Positions 18,823 through 28,405 of a stretch of 64,000 bases of DNA are shown here, piece after piece. The notes beneath the pieces were generated by a model. It was not told where the DNA came from. It saw only the letters and a program-made list of their open reading frames with translations, and made no database searches. The position numbers were made by a program, and so were the translations under genes. Position 1 is the stretch's first letter. Every line of letters starts with the position of its first letter. The stretch spans positions 2,356,001-2,420,000 of the forward strand of contig AP025576.1 of the NCBI GenBank assembly GCA_022845955.1. Direction: 5' to 3'. This DNA comes from Lachnospiraceae bacterium. GTDB lineage: Bacteria; Bacillota; Clostridia; Lachnospirales; Lachnospiraceae.

Positions 18823-19575
18823 TTACGATACACTTCGCTTCTTTTTTAACAGTTTACTCATGGATTCACCCATTTTAACGGGGAAAAGATAACATAAAGC
18901 CGTCAGCAGCTGCTGCCTTGCCGTATGGCAGATATAGAAGCTTTTTTTGTTAATACGGCGGGCAAGGCCGTGTCCCACCGCTAGCGGATCGGCCATAAAA
19001 TCCTTGGGGATCGGAAGCGGGGCGGCGGATTTGGTCCGGGTAAGAGGCGGATGAAAGAGCTGGAACCGTATCCCTTTGTCCATATATTCAAGGTTCAGGC
19101 ATTTGGCGAGGGCTTCCACGGCGCCTTTTGAGGAGGCGTAGGGGCTGATATCGGGAAAACCCATTACACCTACGCCGGAACTTGTGAAAATCACCCTGCC
19201 TTTTCCCTCCTTTTCCATATACGGAACAACAGCCCTGGCAAGCCGCAGCGCCCCATAATAATTTACATTGAATACTTCTTCGTATACAGGGTTACCGGTA
19301 TCCTTCATGGAGCCAAAGGTACAAAGGCAGGCATTATGGATGGCGATATCAATAGCGCCATAGGTATCGGCACTTTTTTGCACGGCGGCCCGCATACCGG
19401 CCGTATCCCTGACATCACAGACAAGGGGCAGAAGCTGTCCGGGATATTTCTCCTGCAGTGTAAGCAGCTTTGTGGTTTCCACACCCAATACGGTCACCCG
19501 GTGTCCCAGTTCCAACAGACCTTCTGCCAGATAATAACCGATTCCCTGATTTGCGCCGGTGATAAATATATTCAT
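18823..19575 (-). CDS. Short-chain dehydrogenase/reductase
   Basis: 250 residues. Classical SDR features are the nucleotide-binding TGANQGIG at residues 6-13, the Asn-Ala motif region (IHNACLC), a catalytic Ser in FTSSGVGV and the YASSK active site (Tyr and Lys). The C-terminus is longer than in minimal SDRs and rich in hydrophobic and basic residues (LLTALCYLFPVKMGESMSKLLKKK), as seen in some membrane-associated members. It starts one base after the TetR stop codon, so the two are translationally coupled and probably share the TetR-controlled promoter. The substrate is unknown. Confidence 0.92.
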   Translation of the reverse strand: MNIFITGANQGIGYYLAEGLLELGHRVTVLGVETTKLLTLQEKYPGQLLPLVCDVRDTAGMRAAVQKSADTYGAIDIAIHNACLCTFGSMKDTGNPVYEEVFNVNYYGALRLARAVVPYMEKEGKGRVIFTSSGVGVMGFPDISPYASSKGAVEALAKCLNLEYMDKGIRFQLFHPPLTRTKSAAPLPIPKDFMADPLAVGHGLARRINKKSFYICHTARQQLLTALCYLFPVKMGESMSKLLKKKRSVS

Positions 19576-19576
19576 A

Positions 19577-20182
19577 TCAGTTCCCCTTCCGATAGGTTGC
19601 TAAAAAGTTCTGTGCCGCAGACATTACCGCTTTCCTGAAGCGTTCCTTCTCTTTCTCCGTATAGGAATGGTTCATATATTGACTGAAATATAAGAAGATC
19701 GGAGAATAGTATTCCAGGGCGATATGGGCGGGATCCTTTCCTTCCAGATAACCGATGTCCAGCAGCTTCTTCATGACCATTGTCTGAAAGGCAAGAGGCT
19801 TTTCTATACACCAACGGACATATTGATCCCGGATTCTGTCATTATGGCTGCGTTCATGATTCATGAGCATAATCATCCGGCTGATAAAAGGATCCAAAAA
19901 AAAGTACCGGATGTATTGTTCCGTAACCGCGTAAAAATGTTTATCATCCATTGCCGTAATGTGGCCCAACCCTTCCTCCAAACGGTCCATCATCTGCCGG
20001 GATATCTGGATATACCGGTCCATGAGAGAGTCCAGTATCGCCTGCTTATTCTTAAAATGAAAATACAGGGAACTGTCCCTGATGCCGGTTTTTGCCGCAA
20101 TATCCCGCACCGAAGAGGAATCAAAGCCCTTGTGTGAAAATAAATCCAAAGCGGCTTCCTGTATCAGCTCCTTCGTTTCCAT
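19577..20182 (-). CDS. TetR/AcrR family transcriptional regulator
   Basis: 201 residues. The N-terminal helix-turn-helix covers residues 1-50 (ALDLFSHKGFDSSSVRDIAAKTGIRDSSLYFHFKNKQAIL), followed by an all-helical ligand-binding domain with many aromatic residues. Its own promoter has a perfect inverted repeat in the spacer between -35 and -10, which is the expected place for an autorepressor. It is the first gene of a two-gene operon with an SDR enzyme, so the inducer is probably related to the SDR substrate. Confidence 0.93.
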   Translation of the reverse strand: METKELIQEAALDLFSHKGFDSSSVRDIAAKTGIRDSSLYFHFKNKQAILDSLMDRYIQISRQMMDRLEEGLGHITAMDDKHFYAVTEQYIRYFFLDPFISRMIMLMNHERSHNDRIRDQYVRWCIEKPLAFQTMVMKKLLDIGYLEGKDPAHIALEYYSPIFLYFSQYMNHSYTEKEKERFRKAVMSAAQNFLATYRKGN

Positions 20183-23488: not shown

Positions 23489-23824
23489 TTACCGTACTGC
23501 CGGCGCCGTGAACAGGTTAAAGATATGGGCTGCGGAGAGTGCAAGAACAAAAACGGTATAAAACACCGACATTGCGATTTCGTGCCTGCGCCTCATGCGG
23601 ACGGCTTTCACGGTAAAGGCGGCCGAAGGGATAGAAAATACCACGGCATACAATCCGTAATTGATACCCCCGCCCGCTGCTATCTGCAGAATAAAGAACA
23701 GGGTCGCCAGGATTCCGGCGGCAATGCCTCCGATATTCCCGCCTTCCTTCAGAACCTCTTTTTCAAAAATATCCCGGTTCTTATTTTCCTTACGGCTTTT
23801 TTCCAGTATTTCTTCCTTTTCCAT
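23489..23824 (-). CDS. DUF6442-like small membrane protein
   Basis: 111 residues from the ATG at 23824 (GGGAAAG ribosome site); an upstream ATG at 23851 would begin inside the operator. The N-terminus is charged and cytoplasmic (EKEEILEKSRKENKNRDIFEKEV). Three hydrophobic segments follow (IAAGILATLFFILQIAAG, YGLYAVVFSIPSAAFTV, SVFYTVFVLALSAAHIFNLF). Function is unknown. Proteins of this type are commonly paired with a small XRE regulator, as here, which suggests the membrane protein modulates or is controlled by the repressor. Confidence 0.8.
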   Translation of the reverse strand: MEKEEILEKSRKENKNRDIFEKEVLKEGGNIGGIAAGILATLFFILQIAAGGGINYGLYAVVFSIPSAAFTVKAVRMRRRHEIAMSVFYTVFVLALSAAHIFNLFTAPAVR

Positions 23825-23847
23825 AAAGAGCTTTCCCTTTCTGAATA

Positions 23848-23897
23848 CCAAGTTAACTTGTCAAACACAGAATAACACTGCCAAGTTAACTTGTCAA
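23848..23897 (-). promoter_or_regulatory. XRE/DUF6442 promoter with two identical operator sites
   Basis: On the minus strand: -35 TTGACA (plus 23892-23897), 17 bases, -10 TATTCT (plus 23869-23874). Two exact copies of CCAAGTTAACTTGTCAA lie at plus 23848-23864 (over the start point) and 23881-23897 (over the -35 and spacer), 33 bases apart. Each contains the palindrome AAGTTAACTT. Confidence 0.75.
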
Positions 23898-24027: not shown

Positions 24028-24082
24028 ATTCACCGGATGGATGCTGTTATTGTTATTATTTTGTAGAAATATAACAAAAAAA

Positions 24083-24111
24083 TTGTATAATCAGGTATGG
24101 TGTTATATAAT
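24083..24111 (+). promoter_or_regulatory. Promoter of the oxidoreductase-HypA-DUF5692 operon
   Basis: TTGTAT (24083-24088), 17 bases, TATAAT (24106-24111), in an AT-rich stretch, with a leader of about 60 bases before the start codon at 24182. Confidence 0.6.
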
Positions 24112-24181: not shown

Positions 24182-26905
24182 ATGGCGGAGGGAAGAGAGC
24201 TGATTCTGAAACTGGGTCAGAAAATAACGGACCGGATCGGCGTGAAGGTGACCGTGGAGGATCCGGAGTACTGGGGACTGGCATGTGTGATAACGGATGA
24301 GATGGCGGAGGTTGCCCTGGCCATGAAGGTGAGGGTTCCGGCTACGGCACAGTGGATTGCCAGGCGGTGTAAAAAGAGCGTGGAGCGCACCGAAGAACTG
24401 CTTCAGGAGATGAGCGTAATCGGCCTGATTGAATACAACTGGGAGAATGAGGATCACCATAAACAATATGTGCTTCCTATGTTTGTCCCCGGCTGTGCGG
24501 AATTTATGATGATGAATGCAAAACAGGTGGAGGAGCATCCGGAGCTGGCTGATTTCTTTGAACAGATGGCCAGGCTTCCGCTGGAAAAGGTAACACCCAT
24601 GGTGCCTTACGGCGGAGCGGGAATCGGCATGCATGTCATCCCTGTGGAAAAAGCGATTCCGGCCAGGCAGGAGTCGGCGAGCATCGAGCATATTTCCTAT
24701 TGGCTGAATAAGTACAAGGATAAATATGCGGTAGGGGCCTGCTCCTGCAGGCGCCAGCAGCGCGTGCGCGGGGAAGGGACCGGCGATTTGGAGGATGATC
24801 TGTGCATAGGCGTGGGGGATATGGCCGATTACCTGGTGGAAACGGGGAAGGGCCGCTATATTGATATCAATGAAGTCATGGAGATCCTGCAGCGGGCAGA
24901 GGATAACGGCTATGTCCATCAAATCACCAATATCGACGGAGAAGAGAAAATTTTTGCCATATGCAACTGTGCGGTGGGCGTGTGCAACGGTCTGCGGACT
25001 TCCCAGTTGTTCAATACCCCGAATATGTCCCGCTCGGCCTATCGCGCCAGCGTGACAAAAGAAGACTGTGTGGCCTGCGGCAGATGTGTGGAATACTGTC
25101 CTTCCGGAGCCGCCAGACTGGGGCAGAAGCTGTGTACCAAAAGCGGGGAGATCGAATATCCCAGGCAGGAACTGCCGGATGAAACAAAATGGGGCAGGGA
25201 AAAGTGGAGTGTGGACTACCGGGACAAAAACCAGATCAACTGCTATGATACCGGGACGGCTCCCTGCAAGGCGGCCTGTCCGGCCCATCTTCCGGTACAG
25301 GGTTATATTAAGATGGCTTCCCAGGGCAGATATATGGATGCGCTGAAGCTGATTAAGACGGAAAACCCGTTCCCGGCGGTATGCGGCGCTATCTGCAACC
25401 GGCGCTGTGAGGATGCCTGTACCAGGGGAACGGTTGACAATGCGGTGGCAATCGACGAGATCAAAAAATTCATTGCAGAGCAGGAGCTGTATGCCCGGAA
25501 CCGTTATATTCCGCAGATGCTGAATTATTCAGGAAAGCCCTTTCCGGAAAAGATTGCCGTGATCGGAGCGGGGCCTGCGGGAATGTCGGCTGCCTTTTAT
25601 TTAAAAAGAAGCGGATATCCGGTTACTGTTTTTGAAAAGGAAAAACGTCCCGGCGGTATGCTGCTGAACGGCATCCCGTCTTTCCGGCTGGAAAAGGATG
25701 TCATCGAGGCGGAAATTGATGTCCTTCGGTCTATGGGAGTGGAATTCCGGTGCGGGATAGAAGTGGGGCGGGATACTACCATAGAGAAGCTGCGCAGGGA
25801 AGGTTATAAAGCGTTTTATGTTGCCATAGGGGCCCAGGACGGACGCCGGGCGGGAATTCCGGGAGAAGAGGCGGAAGGTGTGCTTACAGGTCTGGAATTC
25901 TTACGTTCCGTGAATCAGGATGCGGCTGACGTCCGGCTTGCCGGCCGCACTGTGGTAATCGGCGGCGGGAATGTGGCGGTGGATGTGGCGAGAACGGCTC
26001 TGCGTGCCGGTTCCGAAGCCGCAGCCATGTATTGCCTGGAAACACGGGAAACCATGCCCGCAGCGGCGGACGAGGTTGCGGAGGCACTGGAAGAGGGAAT
26101 TACGATTTGCAATTCCTGGGGACCGAAGGAGATCCTTATGGAAAACGGAAGAGTATCGGGAGTGGTATTTAAAAAATGTATTTCTGTATTTGATGAGAAC
26201 GGCCGGTTCCATCCCCGGTATGACGAAGAACAGCTGCTCCGGGTGGCATGCGAGTCTGTCCTGGTATCTATCGGACAGTCCGTCCGGTGGGGAGAGCTGC
26301 TAACGGGAACGAAGGTGGAAATCAATAAAAACGGAACCGTAAAGGCCGATCCTCTGACGTATCAGACCGGGGAACCGGATATCTTTGCAGGAGGTGATGT
26401 TTATACGGGGCCGAAATTTGCCATTGATGCCATTGCGGCAGGAAAAGAAGGCTGTGTATCCATACACCGGTTTGTACATGAAGGACAGAGCCTTACAATA
26501 GGCAGAAACCGGAGAATGTTTGTGGAGCTGGATAAAGAGAATCTCAGGCTGGATCCGGAATCCTTCGATAATGCGAAGCGGCAGGTTCCGGGACGGAAAA
26601 GCCCCGATGCCGGGACGGACTTTAGTGATTTACGCAGTACTTTTACCGAAGAGCAGGTAAAAGCGGAAGCGAACCGCTGCCTGGGCTGCGGAGCCACGGT
26701 GGTGGATCCCAATAAGTGTATAGGCTGCGGCATTTGTACCACCAAATGCGAATTTGATGCGATTCATCTCAGCAGAGATCTGCCGGAGGCCAGCAAGATG
26801 TATAAGGCGGAGGACAAGATGAAGGCCATTCTTCCTTATATGCTGAAGCGCGAAATCCGGATTCTACGAAAAGGAAAGAAGGGACGGGAAAGCGGGAATG
26901 CATGA
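24182..26905 (+). CDS. Multi-cluster Fe-S / FAD / NAD(P) oxidoreductase with N-terminal winged-helix-like segment
   Basis: 907 residues. About 1-100 looks like a winged helix (ITDEMAEVALAMKVRVPATAQWIARR). Cys-rich motifs follow: GACSC (near 188), AICNCAVGVC (about 259-268), a ferredoxin-type CVACGRCVEYCP (about 296-307), and then the GltD-type Fe-S domain (APCKAACP near 360, VCGAICNRRCEDAC near 400-414). The flavoprotein part has an FAD site VIGAGPAGMSAAF (near 460), an NAD(P) site VIGGGNVAVDVA (near 593) and the second FAD motif IFAGGDVYTGP. A C-terminal ferredoxin segment (CLGCG, then CIGCGICTTKC, near 833-856) completes it. It resembles GltD/SfrB-type NADPH oxidoreductases that pass electrons through Fe-S clusters. 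The electron acceptor is unknown. It overlaps the next gene by 8 bases. Confidence 0.88.
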   Translation: MAEGRELILKLGQKITDRIGVKVTVEDPEYWGLACVITDEMAEVALAMKVRVPATAQWIARRCKKSVERTEELLQEMSVIGLIEYNWENEDHHKQYVLPMFVPGCAEFMMMNAKQVEEHPELADFFEQMARLPLEKVTPMVPYGGAGIGMHVIPVEKAIPARQESASIEHISYWLNKYKDKYAVGACSCRRQQRVRGEGTGDLEDDLCIGVGDMADYLVETGKGRYIDINEVMEILQRAEDNGYVHQITNIDGEEKIFAICNCAVGVCNGLRTSQLFNTPNMSRSAYRASVTKEDCVACGRCVEYCPSGAARLGQKLCTKSGEIEYPRQELPDETKWGREKWSVDYRDKNQINCYDTGTAPCKAACPAHLPVQGYIKMASQGRYMDALKLIKTENPFPAVCGAICNRRCEDACTRGTVDNAVAIDEIKKFIAEQELYARNRYIPQMLNYSGKPFPEKIAVIGAGPAGMSAAFYLKRSGYPVTVFEKEKRPGGMLLNGIPSFRLEKDVIEAEIDVLRSMGVEFRCGIEVGRDTTIEKLRREGYKAFYVAIGAQDGRRAGIPGEEAEGVLTGLEFLRSVNQDAADVRLAGRTVVIGGGNVAVDVARTALRAGSEAAAMYCLETRETMPAAADEVAEALEEGITICNSWGPKEILMENGRVSGVVFKKCISVFDENGRFHPRYDEEQLLRVACESVLVSIGQSVRWGELLTGTKVEINKNGTVKADPLTYQTGEPDIFAGGDVYTGPKFAIDAIAAGKEGCVSIHRFVHEGQSLTIGRNRRMFVELDKENLRLDPESFDNAKRQVPGRKSPDAGTDFSDLRSTFTEEQVKAEANRCLGCGATVVDPNKCIGCGICTTKCEFDAIHLSRDLPEASKMYKAEDKMKAILPYMLKREIRILRKGKKGRESGNA

Positions 26906-27242
26906 ATTGGGTATTATCGTACATATTTCCCGGACGCTGGATGCGGTGGCAGAGGAAAACCGGCTGACGGAAATCGGATCGGTGACGCTTGAGGTGGGAG
27001 AGGTGAGCGGAGTGGTTCCGGAGTATATGACGGACTGCTGGAAGTATTACCGTAAGAAATCGGAGCTGTTAAAGGATTCGGATTTGAAAATAGAAATACT
27101 TCCTGCCGTGACGCTTTGCGAAGCCTGCCAAAAGACCTACCCCACTGTGCGTTACGGACGGCAGTGTCCCAGCTGCGGCAGCTGGGATACCTGTCTGGTT
27201 ACGGGAAATGAGTGCAGCATTAAAGAAATTGAGGCCTGTTGA
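26898..27242 (+). CDS. HypA/HybF-like nickel-binding protein
   Basis: 114 residues, the normal length for HypA. The N-terminal MHE (His2 and Glu3 bind Ni in known HypA) is kept, as are the family's LEVGEVSGVVPEYM segment and the zinc site of two CxxC pairs (CEAC and CPSC). HypA delivers nickel to [NiFe] hydrogenase. No hydrogenase or other hyp gene is in this window. It starts inside the oxidoreductase gene and is co-translated with it, so either it serves a nickel enzyme elsewhere or it has a role with this oxidoreductase. Confidence 0.85.
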   Translation: MHELGIIVHISRTLDAVAEENRLTEIGSVTLEVGEVSGVVPEYMTDCWKYYRKKSELLKDSDLKIEILPAVTLCEACQKTYPTVRYGRQCPSCGSWDTCLVTGNECSIKEIEAC

Positions 27243-27279
27243 AAGCGGCTGACGGAAAGAAAGGCGAGGAGGGGAGTTT

Positions 27280-28329
27280 ATGTTATTTCATGTTTACGGC
27301 AGTAATGCGGTTTATCAGTGGGTTGCCATGCTGGCTGTTCTGGCGGCGCTTATCCTGCTGAATGAATTTTCAAGAAGGAGCAAATTCGGAGGCTTGTTCA
27401 TGTTCGGCGTCCTGCCGGCAGCGCTCACGGTTTATTTTGTGGTAATAGAAGCTGCGGCCGGGCAGGGGGCGGAGTGGGCGCTTCAGAACCAGACCCATCT
27501 GTATATGAACGGGTGGTTCCATTATGCCAAGCTATATGCGTCACTGGCCGGCTGTATCGGTTTTATGATGATTAAATATGGCTGGGGTATCGGCAAAAAG
27601 CATTGGTTCAGGGCATTTCCTTTTGCTATTGTGGCGGTTAACATCCTGATTGCCGTTGCGAGTGATTTTGAATCGGCGGCTAACGGCTGGAATTCCTGGT
27701 GGATGTCGTCGGAAAGTGTCTGGCTGTATGGCGGCTGGCATAATATCATGAACGCAGTCGCAGGGATTCTCAACATCCTGTGCATGACCGGCTGGTGGGC
27801 GGTTTACGCTTCCAGGGATAAAAAGGACATGATATGGCCGGATATGATCTGGGTCTATATCGTGGTATATGATATATGGAATTTCGCCTATACTTATAAC
27901 TGCCTGCCCACCCATGCCTGGTTCTGCGGGGTGGCGCTGCTGCTGGCCCCTACGATTGCAGCTCTTTTCTGGAACAAGGGCGGCTGGATCATGAACCGCG
28001 CCAATACGCTCTGTATGTGGTGTATGTTCGCCCAGGTTTTCCCGCTTTTCCAGGAAACCTTCCCGGACGGCTCCGCAGTATATAAATGGGCAGCCATACC
28101 GGTTCAGTATGCGGACGGCACCATGAACGGTATTGCCGCGGGCGGTGCGGCCAATGCCAACCCTACGGCAATGTTTGTTGTCAGTGCCCTGGCGCTGCTC
28201 ACCAACGCCGCCGCATTGGGCTATATTGTATACAAGTCGGTGAAAAATAAGAAGAATCCCTATACCGGAGAAGTGTTTACCGAATTTAAGTATTATAAGG
28301 ATGCCCTGGCAAGAGCGGATGTGAAATAG
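27280..28329 (+). CDS. DUF5692-like multi-spanning membrane protein
   Basis: 349 residues with about nine hydrophobic segments, starting with VAMLAVLAALILLNEFS. It is notable for aromatic-rich loops (WNSWWMSSESVWLYGGWHN, WVYIVVYDIWNFAYTYNCLP, WGIGKKHWFRAFP) and several membrane-level His residues, a composition seen in heme- or quinone-binding proteins, although no known cofactor motif is recognised. Ribosome site GAGGAGGGG; 37 bases after the HypA-like gene and clearly in its operon, which ends at the terminator at 28371-28405. Function unknown; a membrane partner for the oxidoreductase is an inference from the operon. Confidence 0.75.
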   Translation: MLFHVYGSNAVYQWVAMLAVLAALILLNEFSRRSKFGGLFMFGVLPAALTVYFVVIEAAAGQGAEWALQNQTHLYMNGWFHYAKLYASLAGCIGFMMIKYGWGIGKKHWFRAFPFAIVAVNILIAVASDFESAANGWNSWWMSSESVWLYGGWHNIMNAVAGILNILCMTGWWAVYASRDKKDMIWPDMIWVYIVVYDIWNFAYTYNCLPTHAWFCGVALLLAPTIAALFWNKGGWIMNRANTLCMWCMFAQVFPLFQETFPDGSAVYKWAAIPVQYADGTMNGIAAGGAANANPTAMFVVSALALLTNAAALGYIVYKSVKNKKNPYTGEVFTEFKYYKDALARADVK

Positions 28330-28370: not shown

Positions 28371-28405
28371 AAAACGGCCATACCATAAAAAGTATGGCCG
28401 TTTTT
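28371..28405 (+). terminator. Intrinsic terminator of the oxidoreductase operon
   Basis: AAAACGGCCATAC (28371-28383) pairs with GTATGGCCGTTTT (28392-28404) around an 8-base loop, ending in a run of T. With A on the left and T on the right it could act in both directions. Confidence 0.88.

Follow-up and report, generated by a model that had tools for sequence, protein, structure and literature searches.

The closest described relative of the system considered here is the isoprene-linked operon of Acetobacterium wieringae ISORED-2, in which IsrA was named as a putative isoprene reductase (Kronen 2023, PMC10134865). According to that report, A. wieringae IsrA is a protein of 901 amino acids (aa) with four [4Fe-4S] clusters and a six-cysteine (Cys6) site, including CxC motifs at 180/182 and 254/256, and 988 homologues of IsrA clade 9 have HypA (~73%), HypB (~56%), TetR (~21%) and DUF5692 (~40%) among their neighbours (PMC10134865). 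Here, we analysed 64,000 nucleotides of a Lachnospiraceae bacterium genome (contig AP025576.1, positions 2,356,001 to 2,420,000; hereafter the window), in which an isrA-like gene, hypA and a DUF5692 gene form an operon with that same arrangement. The linkage of IsrA, HypA and DUF5692 is as such already known and not new; an earlier note on this DNA had put the genes forward as a candidate for an undescribed system, which they are not, because the report on A. wieringae named IsrA and gave HypA and DUF5692 as its neighbours. What we describe is a conserved operon of a known, barely characterised family, together with a new and testable link to unsaturated fatty acids.

The first gene of the operon (24182–26905, + strand) encodes a 907-aa oxidoreductase with flavin adenine dinucleotide (FAD), nicotinamide adenine dinucleotide (phosphate) (NAD(P)) and Fe-S sites, as assigned from its open reading frame (ORF) and from Pfam matches to Pyr_redox_2, Fer4_20 and Fer4. 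The Cys clusters, GltD-type FAD/NAD(P) sites and C-terminal ferredoxin motif that the earlier note had read in the product were all recovered. Specifically, a GltD-like FAD/NAD(P) core, common to this protein and to flavoproteins of the GltD, NfnB and DsrL types, lies at residues 457–754, GltD/DPYD domain II clusters at C362–C413, and ferredoxin-type [4Fe-4S] sites at Cys 296/299/302/306 and, towards the C-terminus, at 846/849/852/856. The Cys6 pattern consists of C187, C189, C208, C261, C263 and C268, with two CxC motifs, and its six cysteines are invariant in 122/122 homologues as well as in 7 more from other families. The step of 74 residues between the CxC motifs (187/189 to 261/263) is that of A. 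wieringae IsrA. With about 900 aa, the FAD/NAD(P) core, DPYD domain II, two extra ferredoxin-type sites and Cys6, the product has the marks of clade 9 and, judged by its sequence, fits IsrA when set beside the published description of the A. wieringae protein. It scored below the cut-off of all 25 NCBIfam families listed (of 122 matched). A winged helix, already suspected at the N-terminus, was seen at residues ~28–100 of the predicted model, with Z up to 7.5 (middling) to ArsR/MarR-type folds, and comparison of residues 1–345 gave no structural match beyond this part. The predicted local distance difference test (pLDDT) score of this model falls below 50 at residues 105–108, 138–162 and 271–345, which are parts of low confidence.

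The isrA-like gene overlaps hypA (26898–27242, + strand; 114 aa) by 8 bases, and 37 bases separate hypA from the DUF5692 gene (27280–28329, + strand; 349 aa), so that the tight linkage originally noted is present in the ORFs. The HypA product, a protein of the nickel metallochaperone family, matches Pfam PF01155 at 103.9 bits against a cut-off of 28.9. It begins with MHE and carries the CxxC...CxxC pattern; the nickel ligands M1, H2 and E3 and the zinc-site cysteines C74, C77, C90 and C93 are conserved, as the earlier reading had held. It lies under the hydrogenase-equivalog cut-off of NCBIfam TIGR00100 (66.7 vs 88.1 bits). DUF5692 (PF18948), a membrane protein by Pfam and by its predicted model, was matched at 438 bits over residues 8–344, against a cut-off of 27. 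Downstream, an intrinsic terminator at 28371–28404 (+ strand) has a 13-bp perfect stem (arms 28371–28383 and 28392–28404), an 8-nt loop and a T-run, with a dG of −19.8 kcal/mol and z = −7.2; it was absent from the consensus-scanner listing of the stretch. The strong terminator proposed for the operon was thus confirmed, whereas the promoter proposed with it fared less well. The candidate site at 24064–24091 (+ strand, 10/12 matches) is weak evidence, since the stretch contains 8 promoter-like sites where chance alone would give 5.3.

The earlier note had made its proposal hinge on the linkage of the three genes in other genomes, and such linkage was found. We examined the most similar 80 of 204 DUF5692 loci (not a random draw) and, separately, 299 Lachnospiraceae genomes, almost one per genus, which share few genomes with the 80-locus set. 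In the fetched flanks of the 80 loci, IsrA was present in 48, HypA in 47 and HypB in 31. IsrA and DUF5692 lay on one strand in 40 of the 48 loci with IsrA, and HypA was found in 45 of the 48. The other 32 loci represent 31 genomes, 24 of them with IsrA elsewhere and 7 with none (27 genomes matched the window's IsrA at 1e-50; G322, G328 and G334, which had GltD-like matches only, were dropped, and G326 was counted on two fragments). At least two of the loci that had no IsrA in the flank (L017, L077) have HypA at a cut contig edge. Gene order is kept at locus L006 of the congeneric genome G012, with protein identities of 91, 86 and 93% for IsrA, HypA and DUF5692, respectively, and DUF5692 was present in only 2/13 genomes of the window's genus.

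Across the 299 family genomes, DUF5692 was found in 43 and IsrA in 62, and 42 of the 43 DUF5692 genomes had both (Fisher p 1e-34; removal of G104, whose DUF5692 match reaches 20 bits and spans 31 positions, had lowered the DUF5692 count from 44 to 43). Neither a [NiFe]-hydrogenase (PF00374) match nor a full-length urease was detected in 35 of these 42 genomes, with PF00374 matches in 7 and full-length urease in 0. All 39 genomes with a PF00374 match were counted as [NiFe], and only the matches of G094 and G175 extend past the first ~70 positions. Urease was counted in the 20 genomes with near full-length PF00449 matches, leaving 29 with short matches uncounted; if short matches are taken as urease (G017, G057, G175, G276 and G303 among the 42), 35/42 drops to 32/42. 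This is new: 42/43 DUF5692 genomes carry IsrA, and most of these show neither the PF00374 match nor full-length urease.

A lead on the substrate came from IsrA neighbourhoods fetched from genomes that have no DUF5692 and from around IsrA paralogues in others. In L126, L128 and L132, the gene directly before IsrA encodes a homologue (E 1e-108) of PDB 2b9w ('putative aminooxidase'), which we take to be the polyunsaturated fatty acid isomerase (PAI) of P. acnes. This identity agrees with the published account of PAI, an FAD enzyme described as a flavin amine oxidase and solved in six crystal structures (PMC2885616). A PAI-CrtI-FNR-IsrA run, PAI first, was found in L134, L143 and L148, so that PAI adjoins IsrA or heads its run in 6 of the 11 Lachnospiraceae genomes that have PAI (11/299), and all 11 have IsrA (p 1.4e-8). 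A tree of 122 IsrA sequences, rooted at its midpoint, joins the window's clade, which has 27 leaves, to a clade with 21 leaves that include 6 PAI-linked ones (local support 0.97). DUF5692 is linked to 26 of these 27; the contig of the remaining leaf ends just past IsrA, and its genome is 74% complete, with DUF5692 not found. In L173 and L127, a CrtI-like flavoprotein adjoins IsrA where PAI is absent, possibly another polyene-active enzyme.

PAI and DUF5692 come together outside the family. Our survey covered 393 genomes of the phylum, of which 11 had DUF5692, two of these being Lachnospiraceae. In four of the nine outside genomes, PAI, IsrA, DUF5692 and HypA form one run (L276, L278, L279, L281), with HypB in two; the spacing in these four runs is 246–424 bases after PAI and 12–92 bases between the later genes. 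Two of these four genomes also have an IsrA-HypA-DUF5692 locus (L274, L275), as does a fifth genome (L277). L271 has a PAI-DUF5692 pair and no IsrA in the 18 kb fetched, and two further outside genomes (L272 and L280; L273) have DUF5692 with no IsrA in the 18 kb fetched; the last has a fragment (L282). The identity of PAI was checked in L278 (E 1e-54) and L271 (E 2e-68). Directly 5' of PAI in four of these loci lies a gene for a transposase-like helix-turn-helix protein (L271:5979-7016, L278:14303-15364, L279:13751-14815, L281:13568-14689; two scanned), perhaps a domesticated regulator. FecB/FecCD-type genes of an ATP-binding cassette importer, possibly for metal uptake, adjoin the DUF5692 operon at L275:6352-8641 and L281:6207-7256.

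Four things are observed: the genes are linked, they co-occur across genomes, the cysteines are conserved, and some relatives have an isomerase gene as neighbour. On this basis, the reading that we tentatively favour, at slightly less than even confidence, is that the operon encodes an IsrA-type unit for fatty-acid biohydrogenation, with DUF5692 as a membrane partner that handles the fatty acid. The substrate, the metal, the role of DUF5692 and the direction of electron flow are what we infer in the following scheme. NAD(P)H would donate electrons to FAD, from which they would travel along successive [4Fe-4S] clusters to the six-cysteine metal site in the N-terminal part of IsrA (following the scheme of PMC10134865); at this site, a (poly)unsaturated fatty acid would have a conjugated C=C bond reduced. 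The metal, probably nickel, would be supplied to the site by HypA together with HypB, whose gene lies elsewhere in the genome. Within the bilayer, DUF5692 would bind the fatty acid and either present it to IsrA or act on it before reduction, and the cell might benefit through removal of toxic polyunsaturated fatty acids, through an electron sink, or both. The fat of milk and meat is affected when bacteria hydrogenate polyunsaturated fatty acids from the diet, and the association of PAI with IsrA and DUF5692 provides named candidate genes for this biohydrogenation. If the proposal is true, nickel chaperones would belong to an enzyme system other than hydrogenase and urease, and DUF5692 would gain its first testable role.

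Several observations weigh against this proposal. The window's genome has no PAI match at E 1e-60, and within Lachnospiraceae PAI and DUF5692 are never found together (PAI in 0/42 IsrA genomes with DUF5692 vs 11/20 other IsrA genomes, p 3.3e-7); the fatty-acid evidence therefore reaches the window's operon by homology only. PAI and the IsrA found lie on different contigs in 5 of the 11 genomes with PAI, and the four PAI-IsrA-DUF5692 loci represent two families only, with three in one family and two of these in one genus. DUF5692 occurs with no IsrA within the fetched 18–21 kb in L261, L271, L272, L273 and L280. The PF00374 match is mildly commoner in IsrA genomes (16/62 vs 23/237 others, p 0.002), and sequence and fold searches found no solved relative of DUF5692 that hints at a function. 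IsrA substrates may also vary, because other IsrA paralogues adjoin double-cubane reductase genes. The only induction data that we found for the family concern isoprene, which induces A. wieringae IsrA with a log-fold change of 10.7 (PMC10134865).

In the open-access literature, we found no link of IsrA or DUF5692 to fatty acids. The available portion of the main text of PMC10134865 gives no role for DUF5692 and has no word starting with 'linole' or 'isomerase'; it places oleate hydratase beside IsrA homologues in A. woodii and A. fimetarium, which we count in favour of the fatty-acid reading, and draws no fatty-acid conclusion there. The open-access article that names DUF5692 contains, as far as it is accessible, no assay of it, and open-access articles from 2021 on that mention isoprene reductase likewise lack any word starting with 'linole'. 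For Butyrivibrio, the linoleate isomerase is reported to be membrane-bound (PMC12254105), and the conjugated linoleic acid (CLA) reductase as making up 0.5% of cell protein, with biohydrogenation detoxifying polyunsaturated fatty acids (PMC2836310). The linoleate isomerase gene was not found according to the available part of a Butyrivibrio genome paper (PMC6249431). The reaction that we propose resembles those of the isomerase and CLA reductase of Butyrivibrio fibrisolvens, for which these sources, as far as they are accessible, assign no sequence.

A bolder form of the biohydrogenation proposal would make IsrA-HypA-DUF5692 the genes so far missing for biohydrogenation in gut and rumen, with IsrA as the CLA reductase, a new nickel/Fe-S enzyme, and DUF5692 as the membrane-bound linoleate isomerase of Lachnospiraceae, in the place held by the soluble PAI of other IsrA genomes. 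We consider this rather improbable. Its isomerase part is based on the mutual exclusion of PAI and DUF5692 over the 62 Lachnospiraceae IsrA genomes, an exclusion that loses significance when the relatedness of the genomes is taken into account (sign test p 0.125). On a tree of RpoB from IsrA genomes, supported branches force at least 6 PAI changes, and among independent pairs on supported branches DUF5692 was opposite to PAI in 3.7, the same in 0 and without difference in 2.3 (average). That tree drew on a search of 60 of the 62 IsrA genomes (G210 and G286 were left out), 56 of which yielded RpoB (none from G013, G046, G057 and G078; G120 partial). The idea of DUF5692 as a plain substitute for PAI, suggested by the exclusion in Lachnospiraceae, is also weakened by the gene runs that the two share in other families. 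These runs argue against simple replacement, and could mean that the two proteins are concerned with different double-bond positions.

Among the alternatives to a fatty-acid unit, the best placed is that IsrA acts on isoprene, terpenes or some other conjugated hydrocarbon that is not a fatty acid, reducing it, with DUF5692 passing the hydrophobic substrate, and we regard it as unlikely while still deserving weight. The strong isoprene induction of A. wieringae IsrA speaks for it, as does the shared Cys6 pattern; the window's protein also resembles that enzyme in length (907 vs 901 aa), domains and CxC spacing, and in having hypA in its operon. The isoprene-linked operon differs, however, in that it lacks DUF5692 and, in the accessible description, includes a ferredoxin and a second hypA (PMC10134865), whereas the window's operon has DUF5692 and no ferredoxin, second hypA or hypB. 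The PAI neighbours, moreover, point towards fatty acids.

It is also conceivable, if rather improbable, that the unit serves anaerobic respiration by reducing a different C=C or CoA/carboxylate substrate. This would be consistent with the IsrA loci in which a double-cubane reductase (HGD-D pair) and an activase lie upstream of IsrA (L117, L153, L155, L168, L170, L197), and with L195, where the activase alone is found upstream, at the start of the contig; HypA follows in 6/7 of these loci. One DUF5692-linked IsrA (L158) falls in a clade that holds five double-cubane-linked IsrA. Nonetheless, DUF5692 was among the nearest genes in 0/7 double-cubane-linked loci, and the IsrA of these loci belong to clades other than the window's.

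With regard to DUF5692 itself, AlphaFold2 predicted a bundle of about 8–9 helices of at least 15 residues (pLDDT 89, predicted template modelling score 0.87). The best Foldseek E value was 0.31, and the comparison with the seven-transmembrane receptor/rhodopsin fold reached a best Z of 6.8 (root-mean-square deviation 5.1, 178 aligned), a Z that is common for helical bundles. No function was therefore read from the structure, as no solved or convincing fold relative was found. Over 93 members, N28, E29, R32, K84, N155, N158, D183, D188, W200, N201, Y204, Y206 and R240 vary hardly or not at all, and the conserved charged residues would be a better fit to a carboxylate-binding enzyme or carrier than to a haem protein. 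At L272:7692-8549, a distant DUF5692-like paralogue (22.9 bits, under the cut-off) adjoins a DUF5692 gene and a TetR gene, and at L261:9926-10855 DUF5692 lies on plasmid CP117684.1 of Latilactobacillus curvatus, a record with no IsrA at E 1e-100.

The earlier note had envisaged a self-contained redox unit in which DUF5692 is the membrane acceptor or donor. The conserved unit stands, while the electron-carrier role found no support, and we think it quite improbable that DUF5692 exchanges electrons with IsrA through quinone or haem while HypA supplies or senses a metal. The tight linkage to a membrane protein would suit such a carrier, and so would H81 and H212, which are invariant in the 80 nearest members. 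One or both of these histidines are replaced in distant members, however, including the IsrA-linked L274, L276, L277, L278, L279 and L281, which makes a family-wide bis-His haem unlikely on sequence grounds. DUF5692 also accompanies PAI where IsrA was not found (L271), and IsrA is likewise absent from the fetched stretches of L261, L272, L273 and L280.

HypA had been called an orphan, which does not hold for the genome: a second hypA adjoins a hypB-like gene, and an Ech-type [NiFe] hydrogenase cluster lies at L116:2125-12069 (G000:C1 ~4.124-4.134 Mb), beside hypF/hypD/hypE-like genes (names given from a reading of the sequences) and with the host's PF00374 match inside it. The further notion that HypA merely serves this hydrogenase and stands in the operon by chance is very improbable: the Ech-type cluster and the mild excess of PF00374 matches among IsrA genomes would agree with it, but this genome carries another hypA together with hypB, HypA is found in 45/48 IsrA loci, and 35/42 IsrA and DUF5692 genomes have neither the PF00374 match nor full-length urease. 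A restriction of HypA to genomes whose hydrogenase lacks its own hypA was thus not seen, and the unit does occur, as the earlier note had asked, in genomes with neither enzyme. Directly 3' of HypA, a conserved, hydrophobic-looking protein of ~112 aa is encoded at L048:3713-4024 (− strand) and in 12 other loci, mostly Bacteroidales; one member scanned had no Pfam match.

The surroundings of the operon include a TetR-family regulator gene (19577–20182, − strand), a short-chain dehydrogenase gene that adjoins it (18823–19575, − strand) and a small DUF6442 protein gene (23489–23851, − strand). In L006, the TetR and dehydrogenase genes show the same adjacency, and a homologue of the DUF6442 gene adjoins isrA. 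Only this small DUF6442-like gene lies between TetR and isrA in L006, whereas the window, part of a genome of 7.29 Mb, has two extra ORFs there, of 616 aa and 261 aa, the latter of which reads by eye like an AraC-type regulator.

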